Shown here piece by piece: positions 12,369 through 16,393 of a DNA stretch of 33,966 bases (position 1 is the stretch's first letter; each line of letters starts with the position of its first letter). Origin of the DNA: Clostridia bacterium (GTDB lineage: Bacteria > Bacillota_A > Clostridia > Christensenellales > Aristaeellaceae). Location: the NCBI GenBank assembly GCA_017430945.1, contig JAFRMB010000044.1:1-33966 (forward strand), read 5' to 3'. The position numbers and the translations under genes were made by a program. The notes beneath the pieces were generated by a model, which ran no database searches, was not told the origin of the DNA, and was given only the letters and a program-made list of their open reading frames with translations.

Positions 12369-12406
12369 GCTGTTGAAAAGAGAAACCTGCGACGGGAGTG
12401 TGGGCT

Positions 12407-13369
12407 GTGAACTATACCGACAACAGCTATGTGACGATGCTGCTCACGATGGCACTTTCGCCGGATCGCGAAGAGTATGCCAGGCCGTACAGCGTCTCGG
12501 AGTATCGCGTGCTTGAAGCGAAAGTCCGGAAGTCGCAGAAGGTCAAGTCCCTGGGGGCAATGCTGGGCATGGACATCAGCGGCATGATGATGTATCTGGA
12601 CATGCAGGAAGACGAGGCTTACAGGGTATATACGCTGCTCAATCGCGGTGTCCAGCTGTCGTATGCCATGGACGGTTTCATGCGTCAGGGCATCGATGTG
12701 GTCACCTGCTGTGACGATGAGTATCCTCAGCGTCTGCGCAGCAAGTTGTTGGACGCCGCACCGCCCGCATTCTATCGCTGCGGCAACGCGGCGCTGCTGG
12801 ACGGCCCGGCGATCGCGATATTGGGGACGGGTGGTACCAGGACCGGTAACGACGTGCGAGAAGCCATCGGGATACTGGTCGACGGCGCTGTCAGGCACGG
12901 CTACACGGTCATCACCGGGGGCGAGCCCGGCGTGTGCCGATACGCGGAAGGAAAGACTGCGCAGGCCGGCGGAAAGCTGGTCGACGTGCTGGGGGGTGGA
13001 TTCAGCGAACACATCCACTCAGATGAGATCGCAGCCATGATCGCATCGGATCGAGCCGCGACGCTTTGCCTTGAACACCCGGAAGCGATGTTCACCACGA
13101 CACATGCCATCGCAAGAAGCCGATTGCTGTTTGCGCTCGCCGACGCGGCGTTCGTGTTCAACACCGATGGCCGCCGCGGTGAGCTTGAGGCGATCCAAAG
13201 CAGGACATGCGACTGGATATATGCATGGCCCGGCTGTGACGGCTGTCGCACGCTGATCTCGCGCGGCGCGATCCCTATGAATGATCTGAGCCATCAGGAC
13301 TTCGATGATCTGAGCCGGCATTGGAGCACATCCCGTGCCGAACAGCTGAACATGTTCGATCTGTTTTGA
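12407..13369 (+). CDS. Divergent DprA/Smf-like Rossmann-fold protein
   Basis: 320 residues from GTG 12407, preferred over GTG 12398 because GGGAG (12394-12398) then has an 8-base spacing. DprA loads RecA on incoming single-stranded DNA. Seen: an N-terminal helical part, then a recognisable DprA entry DVVTCCDDEYPQRLR with PPAFYRCGN (about 98-127) and a Rossmann core AIAILGTGG. The usual signatures are altered: GSR becomes GTG, SGLARGID becomes TGGEPGVCR (about 171-178), and the RSGSL region reads GRRGEL. No C-terminal winged helix follows; the end is NMFDLF. It may therefore be a DprA relative with a changed ligand or role, for example a LOG/YpsA-type nucleotide-binding protein. It is monocistronic between two hairpins. 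Confidence 0.72.
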   Translation: MNYTDNSYVTMLLTMALSPDREEYARPYSVSEYRVLEAKVRKSQKVKSLGAMLGMDISGMMMYLDMQEDEAYRVYTLLNRGVQLSYAMDGFMRQGIDVVTCCDDEYPQRLRSKLLDAAPPAFYRCGNAALLDGPAIAILGTGGTRTGNDVREAIGILVDGAVRHGYTVITGGEPGVCRYAEGKTAQAGGKLVDVLGGGFSEHIHSDEIAAMIASDRAATLCLEHPEAMFTTTHAIARSRLLFALADAAFVFNTDGRRGELEAIQSRTCDWIYAWPGCDGCRTLISRGAIPMNDLSHQDFDDLSRHWSTSRAEQLNMFDLF

Positions 13370-13497: not shown

Positions 13498-14310
13498 TCA
13501 GGTGCCGGGATTGACATCCACGCCCGGGTAGCGCATCAGAAGTTCTGCCTGAGAGAAACCCATCTTCTCCATCATGCGCAGCACATGGGGGATGCGTGCG
13601 CGCACATTGCCCTCAGCGACGACGAGGTGGTTCTTTTCAAACTCCTCGCACGCGAGGCCCAACATACAACTGCCGACACCCATCCTGCGCCAGCGCTTCG
13701 CGGTCTGGATATAACCGATGACGCCGCAATAATCCTCGTTCCAGATCAGTATCTCGCCGGCCATCCCGGTGGGAGATACCGTCAATATGCGCATGAAACC
13801 CTTGCGGCTTATGAAGGACTGGAGCCATTCAAAGTCGTGTGCGGTGTTATAAAGCTCGTTATACCGTTCAAGGAAATACTTCTGTTCCATGGGATCGCTC
13901 AGGTCATCACGCACGATCACACATCCCGGGGGCAGCCGATAGTCGGCTGCACAGGGCAGTCTGAGCTGCATCTTCACCAGGCCGTCGTTGTCTCTGAAGC
14001 CCATGGGCATGAGTGCATCGAGCATCTGCGTGTCGTCAGGGTCACAGCGGGTATACACGCGGGCAAACTTGCCGCTTTTCGCGCAGATCTCACGCGCGCG
14101 CGCCACGGAGGCGCCCAGCAGCTTGTCCGGCAGATCGGTCCCCTCAAGCTGCAGGCGGACCTGGAACGGGCGAGCCGGGTAGAGCGAAGGGTTGTCGTCA
14201 CAGTATATGACGCACGAACCCAGTTCGTTGCCGCTGACCTCATCGATGGCGACGAAGGTGTTCTCGACGGGCTGTCCGTCGATGGGCTCACGTGCGTGTC
14301 TGAGCAGCAT
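13498..14310 (-). CDS. GNAT-family N-acetyltransferase, probably tandem GNAT
   Basis: 270 residues. Transfers an acyl group from acyl-CoA to an amine; substrate unknown. Seen: the C-terminal half has motif A in IQTAKRWRRMGVGSCML (RRMGVG at 208-213) and ends MEKMGFSQAELLMRYPG, the usual GNAT tail. The N-terminal half contains TQMLDALMPMGFRDNDGLVKM, itself like the end of a GNAT domain, so the protein looks like two GNAT folds with a degenerate first one, as in MshD-type enzymes. Start 14310 has GAGGTGA on the minus strand about 6 bases upstream. It is the last gene of the MazG-like / GuaA-like / GNAT unit, 38 bases after the GuaA-like stop. Confidence 0.85.
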   Translation of the reverse strand: MLLRHAREPIDGQPVENTFVAIDEVSGNELGSCVIYCDDNPSLYPARPFQVRLQLEGTDLPDKLLGASVARAREICAKSGKFARVYTRCDPDDTQMLDALMPMGFRDNDGLVKMQLRLPCAADYRLPPGCVIVRDDLSDPMEQKYFLERYNELYNTAHDFEWLQSFISRKGFMRILTVSPTGMAGEILIWNEDYCGVIGYIQTAKRWRRMGVGSCMLGLACEEFEKNHLVVAEGNVRARIPHVLRMMEKMGFSQAELLMRYPGVDVNPGT

Positions 14311-14348: not shown

Positions 14349-15827
14349 CTACGCCCATTCGATCGCGGTGCAGAGATCGGGCGAGAGGTCGTACGTGACG
14401 CGGTTGATGCCGGGCACCTCCGCGATGATCCGGCTGGCGATGCGTTCCAAAAGGTCATAGGGGAGACGCGCCACCGTATACCCGAACATGCTTTGCGCGT
14501 TGATGGCTCTGATCGAGCAGGCGTGTTCAAACCCGATCCGCCCGCCGCGGTATCCCAGACTCGTTCCTTCCAACAGCACGGCAAAGTACTGTGTGATGCG
14601 CTTGTCCTGACCGGTTTCGCGGATCTCTTCCTGAAGGATCGCGTCGGCGCTGCGTAGCATCGACAGCTTCTCCGCCGAGACCTCGCCCATACACCGAAGT
14701 GCAAGCCCCGGGGCAGGGAAGTGCTGCCGTGTGGTGATCGATTGAGGGATCCCGAGCCGTTCGCCCAGGCTTCTGATCTCTTCCTTGAAGAGCATGCGAA
14801 CAGGCTCCAACAGGTTGCCGGGCTCGGATCGCAGTGCGTAGATCTCGTCGGCTGCGCCGCGCACGAGCAGATCGGGATAGATCGTGCCCTGAACGAAACA
14901 GTCAGGCTCGCCGTTGGCATGGCCGTATTCCTGGAGGATCCGCTGGAATTCATCGTGTGCCGCCGTGCGCTTGTCGAGTGGATCGGAAAGACCGCGGAGC
15001 CTCTCAAGGAAACGGTCGACTGCGTCGATACATACGACATTCAGGCCGAGCTCACACAGCTCATTCGGCACCTGTTCCGGCTCGTCTTCGCGCAGGAGCC
15101 CCGTGTCGATGAACAGACAGGTCAGGCGGTCGCCGATGGCGCGCTTCATCAGCATGGCGCAGGCGGTGGAATCGATGCCGCCGGACACCGCCATCAATGC
15201 CCGGCCGGCGCCGACCCGTTCGCGGATGAAGCGGACTTCCTCATCGATATAATCATCGATGTTCCACTTTGGGGTACAGCCGCATATTTTCTCCGCAAAA
15301 TTCGAAAGTATCACAGCGCCATCGGGATCGTTGGATTCCGCGTAGAACTGAAGGCCGTACAGATCGCGATCCAGGTCGCCGAAAGCGGGGACGATGCCGT
15401 CGATGTTCGTGGCGATCGCCCTGAAACCGTCGGGCAGGTCATAACTGTCGACACGCGTGAAGTATCGATCGCTCTCGGTGAGCTGATCGAACAGAAGGCA
15501 AGGCTGGAAAGTGATCTGTGTCGCCTGATTTGCCAGCACGGTGCCGAGCGAGGCGGAACCGCAAGCCTCGATCATCATGCGCGCCGCACCGCCCAGGGCC
15601 AGCACGGGCACACCCAGGTCCAGTACGTCCCTGGGGAAGCCGCGAGTGTCGCTCGCGTCATCGCCGCCTACGATCAGTATCCCCATCGGCGCCTTGCGGC
15701 GGAAAAGCTCGATATCGGCGCGCCGCGACATGATCTCGGTATAGTAGTGCTGGTATCGCAGCTTGCGCGCCATTTCGATGGCTTCGGGGCCGCCAAGGTC
15801 CAGCACCAATATGAAATCATTGGCCAT
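14349..15827 (-). CDS. GuaA-like protein: degenerate glutaminase domain plus GMP synthase-type ATP-pyrophosphatase
   Basis: 492 residues from ATG 15827 (GGAGGA at 15835-15840); GuaA is usually ~510-525. Domain order matches GMP synthase: class I glutaminase (1-~185), PP-loop ATPase (SGGIDS at 215-220, FIDTGLLR, QGTIYPDLL), and the C-terminal dimerisation domain (RLPYDLLERIASRII). Seen departures: the nucleophile loop GVCYGMQ reads ALGGAAR, so Cys becomes Gly79; FHPE reads FYAE, so His becomes Tyr162. The usual KSHHNVGGLPE region reads YALRSEPGNLLEP, RHPFPGPGLA reads RQHFPAPGLA, and the C-terminal GKPPATIEWE reads SPDLCTAIEWA. The frame is intact, so it is kept by selection. Glutamine hydrolysis is very unlikely, and ordinary XMP amination is doubtful. 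It could be an ammonia-using GMP synthase or a paralogue acting on another nucleotide or acid. It lies between a MazG-like and a GNAT gene. Confidence 0.88.
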   Translation of the reverse strand: MANDFILVLDLGGPEAIEMARKLRYQHYYTEIMSRRADIELFRRKAPMGILIVGGDDASDTRGFPRDVLDLGVPVLALGGAARMMIEACGSASLGTVLANQATQITFQPCLLFDQLTESDRYFTRVDSYDLPDGFRAIATNIDGIVPAFGDLDRDLYGLQFYAESNDPDGAVILSNFAEKICGCTPKWNIDDYIDEEVRFIRERVGAGRALMAVSGGIDSTACAMLMKRAIGDRLTCLFIDTGLLREDEPEQVPNELCELGLNVVCIDAVDRFLERLRGLSDPLDKRTAAHDEFQRILQEYGHANGEPDCFVQGTIYPDLLVRGAADEIYALRSEPGNLLEPVRMLFKEEIRSLGERLGIPQSITTRQHFPAPGLALRCMGEVSAEKLSMLRSADAILQEEIRETGQDKRITQYFAVLLEGTSLGYRGGRIGFEHACSIRAINAQSMFGYTVARLPYDLLERIASRIIAEVPGINRVTYDLSPDLCTAIEWA

Positions 15828-15843: not shown

Positions 15844-16200
15844 TCATCGTTCAGGGTCATAGGATCTGGGCGGACGATGGTCGACGATGTCGATCTTTCG
15901 CAGGACCTGTTCAGTGATATCGATGCCAAGGGTCCGTGTGAGCTGGAGGCCGTACATCATCACGTCGGCGAATTCTTCCGCGATCAACGCCACGCGCTCA
16001 GGGTCGCGCCCATCCATCAGTGCGTGAACATCGTCTGTATTTAGCCACTGAAAGTGTTCGAGGAGCTCGCTCATCTCGACCGTCATGGCCATCGCGACGT
16101 GCTGCGGATCCTGAACACCATCCACGCCCCAGCCCTTGCGAAGGCAGAGCCTGTGAACCTGCTCCTTCAATGTGCCGATCGTCGTATTGTCATCGTTCAT
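15844..16200 (-). CDS. MazG-like nucleotide pyrophosphohydrolase
   Basis: 118 residues from ATG 16200, chosen over 16230 because GGAGGT lies just upstream (minus strand, 16208-16213). All-alpha NTP pyrophosphatase that splits (d)NTP to (d)NMP and PPi. Seen: the ExxE...ExxD metal motif, with E42/E45 in VEMSELLEHFQW and E76/D79 in EEFADVMMYGLQL, as in the short dCTPase/RS21-C6 type. The C-terminal N-x-x-R/K-Y/F-P signature is not intact (DIVDHRPPRSYDPE). It is first in an operon with the GuaA-like and GNAT genes; 16 bases separate its stop from the GuaA-like start. It could be general nucleotide-pool cleaning or supply a monophosphate to the next enzyme; the second is inference. Confidence 0.88.
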   Translation of the reverse strand: MNDDNTTIGTLKEQVHRLCLRKGWGVDGVQDPQHVAMAMTVEMSELLEHFQWLNTDDVHALMDGRDPERVALIAEEFADVMMYGLQLTRTLGIDITEQVLRKIDIVDHRPPRSYDPER

Positions 16201-16228: not shown

Positions 16229-16257
16229 ATTATAGCATATATTCACAGAATATGCAA
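16229..16257 (-). promoter_or_regulatory. Promoter of the MazG-like / GuaA-like / GNAT operon, with internal palindrome
   Basis: Minus strand: TTGCAT (16257-16252), 17-base spacer, TATAAT (16234-16229) with TGC before it (extended -10). Inside the spacer lies the inverted repeat ATATTC-ACA-GAATAT (16239-16253), a possible operator. Transcription would start about 20 bases before the MazG-like start. Confidence 0.75.
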
Positions 16258-16393
16258 ATGTAGCGGGACCTTCCGGCACGGATCGGTGCGCGGCGTATCA
16301 AAAGACGGGCCTTGAACGGATGAAGCACCGACAGATGCAGTCGCACGCAGACAAGATATATCGGAGGAAGCGTCATCGAATCACCTGAAGTGC

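Follow-up and report, generated by a model that had tools for sequence, protein, structure and literature searches.

A lidless GMP synthase-like paralogue of Clostridia with an altered glutaminase pocket and recurring gene neighbours is probably repurposed

In canonical GMP synthases (GuaA) the glutaminase triad is Cys-His-Glu, and in the synthetase site a catalytic Asp and Glu (Pf Asp371 and Glu374) stand before a lid with the motif IK(T/S)HHN. A review of GMP synthetase (PMC10526850) reports that adenyl-XMP or GMP formation is impaired or abolished in Plasmodium lid-residue mutants, that archaeal GuaAb has a lid, that GuaA dimers have cross-subunit contacts and that, in published structures, the XMP-side contacts are a Lys and the Glu of IEWE, the last residue acting via its alpha-carboxylate. 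The Thermus GMP synthase XMP complex (PMC11448925) is one source of residue roles, and the residues with known roles in both papers were mapped by alignment to E. coli GuaA. Filtering by shared 5-mers and a minimum length of 300 aa brought the alignment from 272 sequences down to 183. Residues were counted in 128 proteins classed as lidless and in 39 canonical proteins, the latter without a duplicate E. coli row; the 128 include fragment P0117, whose sequence stops short of the lid, and counts out of 127 omit it. Labels such as L001 denote relatives' loci, G002 genomes and P0052 listed homologous proteins.

The window, which is the whole stretch of 33,966 nucleotides that was analysed, carries a GMP synthase-like gene, GuaA-L, with the following features.

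14349..15827, minus strand: GuaA-L, GMP-synthase-like, 492 aa, without the glutaminase dyad and without the catalytic lid
15591..15593, minus strand: codon of Gly79, at the glutaminase Cys position (Gly in 127/128 lidless, Cys in 39/39 canonical proteins)
15465..15467, minus strand: codon of Arg121, clade-specific, in the former glutaminase domain (127/127 lidless proteins, 39/40 distant members)
15318..15350, minus strand: QFYAESNDPDG, in place of canonical QFHPEVxHT (Tyr162, Glu164, Asn166-Asp167-Pro168-Asp169)
15168..15185, minus strand: ATP P-loop SGGIDS, residues 215-220, intact in the window
14808..14864, minus strand: shortened segment replacing the loop of the catalytic lid, without KxHHN; the model is least confident here
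14352..14384, minus strand: C-terminal segment SPDLCTAIEWA, with the XMP-phosphate Lys changed to Asp, the IEW Glu kept and Ala as the last residue

The frame is uninterrupted from 15827 to 14349: a ribosome-binding-like GGAGG is followed after 8 nt by ATG, and TAG ends the 492-residue protein. Pfam matched GMP_synt_C and NAD_synthase, and found no glutaminase domain at E values up to 1. With 378.8 bits GuaA-L stays under the cut-off of 400 of the NCBIfam GMP-synthase equivalog, and it is also under the cut-offs of two NCBIfam domain models (293.1 vs 338.75; 59.1 vs 172.15), the cut-off of the C-terminal model being passed by some lidless relatives. The closest solved structures by sequence are GMP synthases. 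A structure model from 71 aligned sequences (mean pLDDT 90.7, pTM 0.86) matches the GMP synthases 7sbc, 9kpv and 1gpm over the whole length at 32-34% identity, and a GMP-synthase fold is predicted; the complete architecture in an intact frame, as claimed in the preliminary description, is borne out. A search with the GuaA-L protein gave 3952 matches; 120 were listed, and in these the aligned nucleophile position never holds Cys. Of the 127 positions conserved to 95% or more among 99 close members (the window copy being one of them), GuaA-L matches at 126, and its dN/dS relative to L001 is near 0.16 (0.23/1.43, with dS near saturation). Given these three observations, GuaA-L is not the product of chance or error. 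No internal stops were seen among the clade's matches listed.

At the former glutaminase site Gly79 aligns with E. coli Cys86 and Tyr162 with E. coli His181. Both replacements had been proposed for this gene and are confirmed by the alignment with canonical GuaA, so that the triad reads Gly79, Tyr162, Glu164. Tyr occupies the catalytic His position in 113/128 lidless proteins and the triad Glu is kept in all 128. A Cys lies somewhere at positions 77-83 in 26/127 lidless proteins, in 21 of the 26 at position 81, two residues beyond the nucleophile position; the window copy has no Cys at 77-83. Conservation of at least 90% in the clade together with less than 20% in canonical GuaA marks sixteen columns, and the strongest of them lie in the former glutaminase domain: Gly79, Arg121, Arg125, Gly144, Asn166, Asp167, Pro168 and Asp169. 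Arg125 is fixed only near the window (3/40 distant members). Glu164 and Asp167 are present in 127/127 lidless proteins, 40/40 distant members and 4/4 further proteins of the same type (C-type) fetched as a counter-check. Those same four lack Arg121, which was on that ground rejected as an absolute invariant.

On the ATP side between 126 and 128 of the 128 lidless proteins retain the P-loop residues, 127 the ATP-side Lys and 125 the catalytic Asp; the window copy has its P-loop, as first described, together with Asp319 (the catalytic Asp before the lid), Lys348 and Arg287 (the xanthine-contact position). The catalytic Glu before the lid (E. coli Glu343) is gone, being Val322 in the window and present in 7/127 lidless proteins. 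The stretch KSHHNVGG is deleted, E. coli columns 357-363 being gaps, and with it the lid motif; in the model, confidence falls below 50 at residues 331-336. In the lid columns of the 128 lidless proteins Lys is found in 4, the first His in 3 and Asn in 5, and the residues shown at the second His column include no His. Among the 120 of 3952 matches listed only P0120 retains the lid (fragment P0117 ends before it). At the C-terminus the window reads SPDLCTAIEWA for canonical GKPPATIEWE, and the earlier observation that both the KSHHNVGGLPE and GKPPATIEWE regions are altered, with Ala as the last residue, stands. The XMP-phosphate Lys (Mj Lys302) is Asp in the window and kept in 38/128 lidless proteins, and a second phosphate Arg is kept in about 5%. 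The position that contacts xanthine O6 (Mj Arg102) is Arg in the window, and Arg in 78 and His in 39 of the 128. The preliminary description had both C-terminal XMP contacts lost, a Lys and the terminal Glu. The loss of the Lys holds; however, the contacting Glu is that of IEWE, which is kept in the window and in 123/128 lidless proteins. The terminal Ala was rejected as a key change, given that in PMC10526850 the last residue acts via its alpha-carboxylate, and that 9/128 members end in Ala (100/128 in Glu). Judged by the residue counts in 128 lidless vs 39 canonical proteins, this set has retained its ATP side but appears to have lost both glutamine hydrolysis and the XMP chemistry known from the literature. 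ATP chemistry may persist in lidless proteins, with P-loop, Asp319, Lys348 and Arg287 intact in the window.

GuaA-L is a member of a large, conserved clade of paralogues that has fixed residues of its own and neighbours that recur, and so is probably repurposed. In a quick maximum-likelihood tree built from 95 rows of the reduced alignment, a branch with SH-aLRT 99 sets the 49 lidless rows apart, and L047, a GuaA of the Candidatus Ornithocaccomicrobium type that resembles P0120, sits beside this branch among the lid-bearing rows. The residues of L047 at the positions of the clade pocket are G, R, R, E, N, D, P and D; its lid is intact, the catalytic Asp and Glu and the XMP-end motifs are kept, and a MazG-like gene lies upstream. 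L047 is predicted to be a GMP synthase that depends on ammonia. This type looks like an intermediate in which the glutaminase pocket is already changed and the lid still present. Given that L047 combines the clade's altered pocket with an intact lid, its sequence suggests that the pocket was altered first and the lid lost later. A single lid loss in the clade is likely and favoured by the quick tree. However, in a larger, fast and cruder tree (a further selection and 40 new rows) L047 falls narrowly within the lidless group (2 changes, at forks weakly supported with 83 and 53), so that the single loss is not settled. Two further GuaA proteins, at L026 and L034, have the Cys replaced and the lid intact; because they group among canonical GuaAs, glutaminase loss has probably happened more than once.

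The distant members indicate which residues stay. Forty lower-ranked members, hand-chosen and non-random, were taken from one list and come from 40 genomes; in this sample, collected with an N-terminal-domain model that favours members keeping that domain, all 40 have Gly for Cys, lack the lid and keep Glu164 and Asp167, Asn or His stands at 166 in 39, and Pro168 is present in 34. In the same 40, (S/T)GGxD(S/T) is intact in 27 and not intact in 13, the catalytic Asp is present in 26, and both in 19. In an 85-member set Gly79, Arg121, Glu164 and Asp167 occur together in 83, the P-loop in 71 and the Asp in 70, with about 9 changes each for P-loop and Asp on the fast tree of this set. P-loop and Asp change repeatedly and the ex-glutaminase motif E-x-(N/H)-D does not, which speaks against amination as the function that the clade has conserved. 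As a counter-check, a search with the full-length protein covered 28 genomes without a clear C-type copy in the N-terminal-model list, and five odd copies were fetched: four are C-type (lidless, with Gly79, Glu164 and Asp167), with the P-loop intact in 3/4, and the fifth, L214, is lid-bearing. Domain identity does not support the N-terminal domain as the functional core, since it is the least conserved domain of the clade overall (mean identity 0.35 vs 0.40 and 0.44, the dimerisation part being highest at 0.44) and only its pocket motif is fixed. The corresponding means for canonical GuaA, N-terminal domain first, are 0.51, 0.63 and 0.59.

To date the clade has turned up chiefly in a single GTDB family of Clostridia. 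In a sample of 200 genomes from the GTDB family to which G002 belongs, the lidless type was read in at least 80 (36 from neighbour and alignment loci, 40 distant members and four from the counter-search, G331, G144, G427 and G436), and G435 has the bridging type; 187 genomes of the family match the N-terminal model, which canonical GuaA matches too, and further lidless copies may exist. Among 391 genomes of the class, 16 match this model at E 1e-46 or better, a threshold that would miss distant members: G002 and G005 are lidless, and the other 14 are lid-bearing GuaA, 13 of them with the Cys motif and one (L199) in which G.CYG is not matched and lid and QFHPE are kept. L019/L040 (G138, from the order sample and outside the 200) are lidless without MazG or GNAT neighbours, and L003 is a short weak match. 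In 31 genomes, 30 with the lidless and one with the bridging type, 28 have another lid-bearing GuaA; 23 carry a canonical-type GuaA, in 5 the sole other copy bears the lid but has no intact glutaminase, and 3 have neither, counts in which genomes may be incomplete (in G446 the contig starts after the Cys of the canonical-type GuaA). A second GuaA paralogue was also seen, with frames of 433-470 aa, a shortened and Cys-less glutaminase domain, and lid and XMP motif intact (L006, L114, L116, L118, L119, L121-L123, L133-L137, L140); by its residues it is likely an ammonia-fed XMP aminase. ATPPase-only GuaA of 333-345 aa occurs in bacteria at L125, L141:4268-5266 and L142, the L141 copy lying downstream of, and on the same strand as, a canonical guaA, an arrangement that recalls the split enzyme of archaea.

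The neighbours of GuaA-L in the window are the following.

15844..16200, minus strand: MazG-like nucleotide pyrophosphohydrolase (PF12643), ending 16 nt before the GuaA-L start
13498..14310, minus strand: tandem GNAT acetyltransferase, 270 aa, starting 38 nt after the GuaA-L stop
16229..16258, minus strand: sigma-70-like promoter just upstream of the MazG-like gene, second hexamer TATAAT, 10/12 matches

The order MazG-like, GuaA-L, GNAT on one strand constitutes a putative operon; the promoter is a consensus match only, with 4 found in the region vs 1.6 expected. The MazG-like protein scores 40.8 bits against PF12643 (cut-off 27) and has EMSE and EFAD, corresponding to the MazG-like motif EXXE...EXXD. 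The GNAT neighbour is below the cut-off of its best Pfam GNAT model (22.3 vs 25.4); its structure model has pLDDT 94.7, and its best fold matches are tandem GNATs (E 1.8e-14). Counted with one locus per genome in 78 lidless loci, GNAT adjoins GuaA-L downstream in 42 of the 73 loci with room (not found in 31), and a MazG-like gene lies upstream on the same strand in 22 of 76 (not found in 54); L001 has MazG by tblastn and was missed by the neighbour-count rule. At canonical guaA loci with room GNAT was found in 0/45 and MazG in 0/60 (distinct proteins 0/43 and 0/58). Lid-bearing copies without the Cys motif gave GNAT in 0/15 and MazG in 3/26, all three being the bridging protein fetched thrice. 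The GuaA-L-GNAT linkage looks old, given that identity of the window GNAT to those of distant members falls to 21-26%. The GNAT neighbour is also kept in distant members that have lost P-loop and/or Asp (e.g. L167, L173, L177). Mere gyrB/gyrA synteny was rejected as the reason for this order for two reasons: it persists at L038 and L078 with no gyrB found in 17 kb, and GNAT is retained in distant members. Between the window and L001, identity is 68% for GuaA-L, 84% for the MazG-like protein and 85% for GNAT, and between L002 and L042 dN/dS is about 0.48, 0.25 and 0.29 respectively. At L039:3144-3761 two tandem MazG-like copies precede GuaA-L, and GNAT was not found there. At L090, L092, L094 and L096, one subclade, GuaA-L is followed by a gene other than GNAT, which by its start presumably resembles ribose-5-phosphate isomerase B. 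Elsewhere in the window (12398-13369, plus strand) lies a DprA-like gene, above the cut-off for Pfam DNA_processg_A and at 55 vs a cut-off of 191 for NCBIfam dprA, whose product is fast evolving (62% identity to L001).

Judged by its residues of known role, GuaA-L is not expected to function as a GMP synthase, whether normal or fed with ammonia. The favoured reading is a pseudoenzyme or re-tooled protein with a conserved function in the ex-glutaminase pocket that involves GNAT. Stated in full, GuaA-L would be a retired GMP synthase that keeps the fold, has its glutaminase pocket re-tooled, has GNAT as a partner and makes no GMP, to which we give a probability of roughly 0.45. By sequence the glutaminase nucleophile and His have been lost and the lid for adenyl-XMP formation deleted, and the ATP-site residues are dispensable in distant members. 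The residues that are fixed across the clade in the ex-glutaminase site (Gly79, Glu164, Asp167, nearly always Asn or His at 166, and mostly both Pro168 and Arg121) would then mark an old glutaminase pocket that now binds a different, possibly anionic ligand, and GuaA-L may act as a ligand-responsive partner or regulator, or as a new catalyst, linked to the tandem GNAT. Given the MazG-like NTP pyrophosphohydrolase in the same putative operon, the role in the window lineage may be nucleotide-pool control. The more specific proposal, that the pocket is a new ligand site and the protein a sensor of nucleotide or nitrogen state that switches GNAT, together with the MazG-like protein in the window lineage, is tentative, with the odds against it. 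The dimerisation part is the best conserved in the clade (0.44), a canonical-type GuaA exists in 23/31 genomes, and GuaA dimers share residues across the interface, as the cross-subunit contacts described in PMC10526850 illustrate; GuaA-L could accordingly be imagined as a dimerisation partner regulating the canonical GuaA of the same cell. However, the sole other copy in 5/31 genomes bears the lid and lacks an intact glutaminase, 3/31 (possibly incomplete) have no other GuaA, and the GNAT link and the fixed ex-glutaminase residues are left unexplained, which makes such a partner improbable.

Given that the window copy keeps its ATP site, the main rival to a retired synthase is a new ATP-dependent ligase or aminase, which would activate a carbonyl of an acceptor other than XMP and take ammonia from solution or from another protein; in one scheme the MazG-like protein supplies a nucleoside monophosphate, GuaA-L aminates it and GNAT acetylates the amine. 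P-loop, catalytic Asp and ATP-side Lys, each kept in at least 125/128, the intact predicted fold (pLDDT 90.7), purifying selection and the putative operon order are consistent with it. However, Glu343 (E. coli) is found in only 7/127, the lid is gone, and P-loop and/or Asp are lost in distant members with a GNAT neighbour (L167, L173, L177), so that this rival is possible and somewhat doubtful. The acceptor other than XMP that had been suggested for this gene is conceivable in the window's subclade, where the P-loop is intact, and sits poorly with the roughly 9 changes each of P-loop and Asp across the clade. An ammonia-dependent GMP synthase tolerating lid loss would account for the xanthine-contact Arg in the window and 78/128 and for the IEW Glu in 123/128, and L047 keeps lid, catalytic Asp and Glu and XMP-end motifs; yet the lid Lys, His and Asn and the catalytic Glu are absent, the phosphate Lys is Asp in the window (kept in 38/128), the second phosphate Arg remains in about 5%, and 28/31 genomes have another lid-bearing GuaA. 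Because the lid residues needed for adenyl-XMP or GMP formation, according to PMC10526850, are gone, ammonia-fed GMP synthesis is not supported and this alternative is very improbable. The suggestion of a changed reaction consequently survives in part: both sites are altered and an extra paralogue exists in relatives (28/31), and its ammonia-fed GMP variant falls with the lid. Decay of a functionless duplicate is the poorest candidate. GuaA-L does evolve faster than its neighbours (68% vs 84% and 85%; dN/dS about 0.48 vs 0.25 and 0.29), but decay is contradicted by the lack of internal stops among the clade matches listed, the 126/127 conserved positions kept, dN/dS below 1, the recurring neighbours and the clade-specific fixed residues.

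P0052, the sole source-named lidless protein among the 120 of 3952 matches listed, and the bridging P0120 are recorded as GMP synthase, a label that on lidless or bridging proteins would lead metabolic models of gut Clostridia astray. The clade provides an apparent stepwise record, with a surviving intermediate, of a bifunctional amidotransferase that loses one active site and then the other and acquires new fixed residues and partners, so that what becomes of a retired glutaminase pocket can be tested directly. If the sensor reading is true, a purine enzyme has become the centre of a regulatory or metabolic module not yet described, with one Clostridia family as its focus. No title or abstract describing a GuaA-L clade was found in the open-licence PMC literature searched.

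Compared with known systems, GuaA-L shares with GuaA (NF000848 / TIGR00884; 1gpm, 7sbc, 2ywc) the fold, domain order, P-loop and ATP-side residues, with TM by query of 0.78-0.86 and 32-34% identity to these three structures. In contrast to GuaA, it lacks the Cys and His and the lid, has an altered XMP-phosphate site, scores below the equivalog cut-off and has GNAT and MazG neighbours. The ATPPase and dimerisation domains of archaeal GuaAb (6jp9, 2dpl) align with GuaA-L over nearly their whole chain at 36-38% identity; unlike that enzyme, GuaA-L has lost the lid and still carries a remodelled glutaminase domain fused to it. An ammonia-dependent GMP synthase without glutaminase needs a synthetase site with a lid, which GuaA-L does not have. 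The shortened Cys-less paralogue (B-type GuaA, e.g. L006, L116, L121) is likewise an extra GuaA without an intact glutaminase, but its lid and C-terminal XMP motif are intact, its glutaminase domain is shortened and it lies outside the C clade. Of the neighbours, the window's GNAT resembles in fold the tandem GNAT MAB_4324 (7q3a), at an identity of 14% at which the substrate is not transferable.
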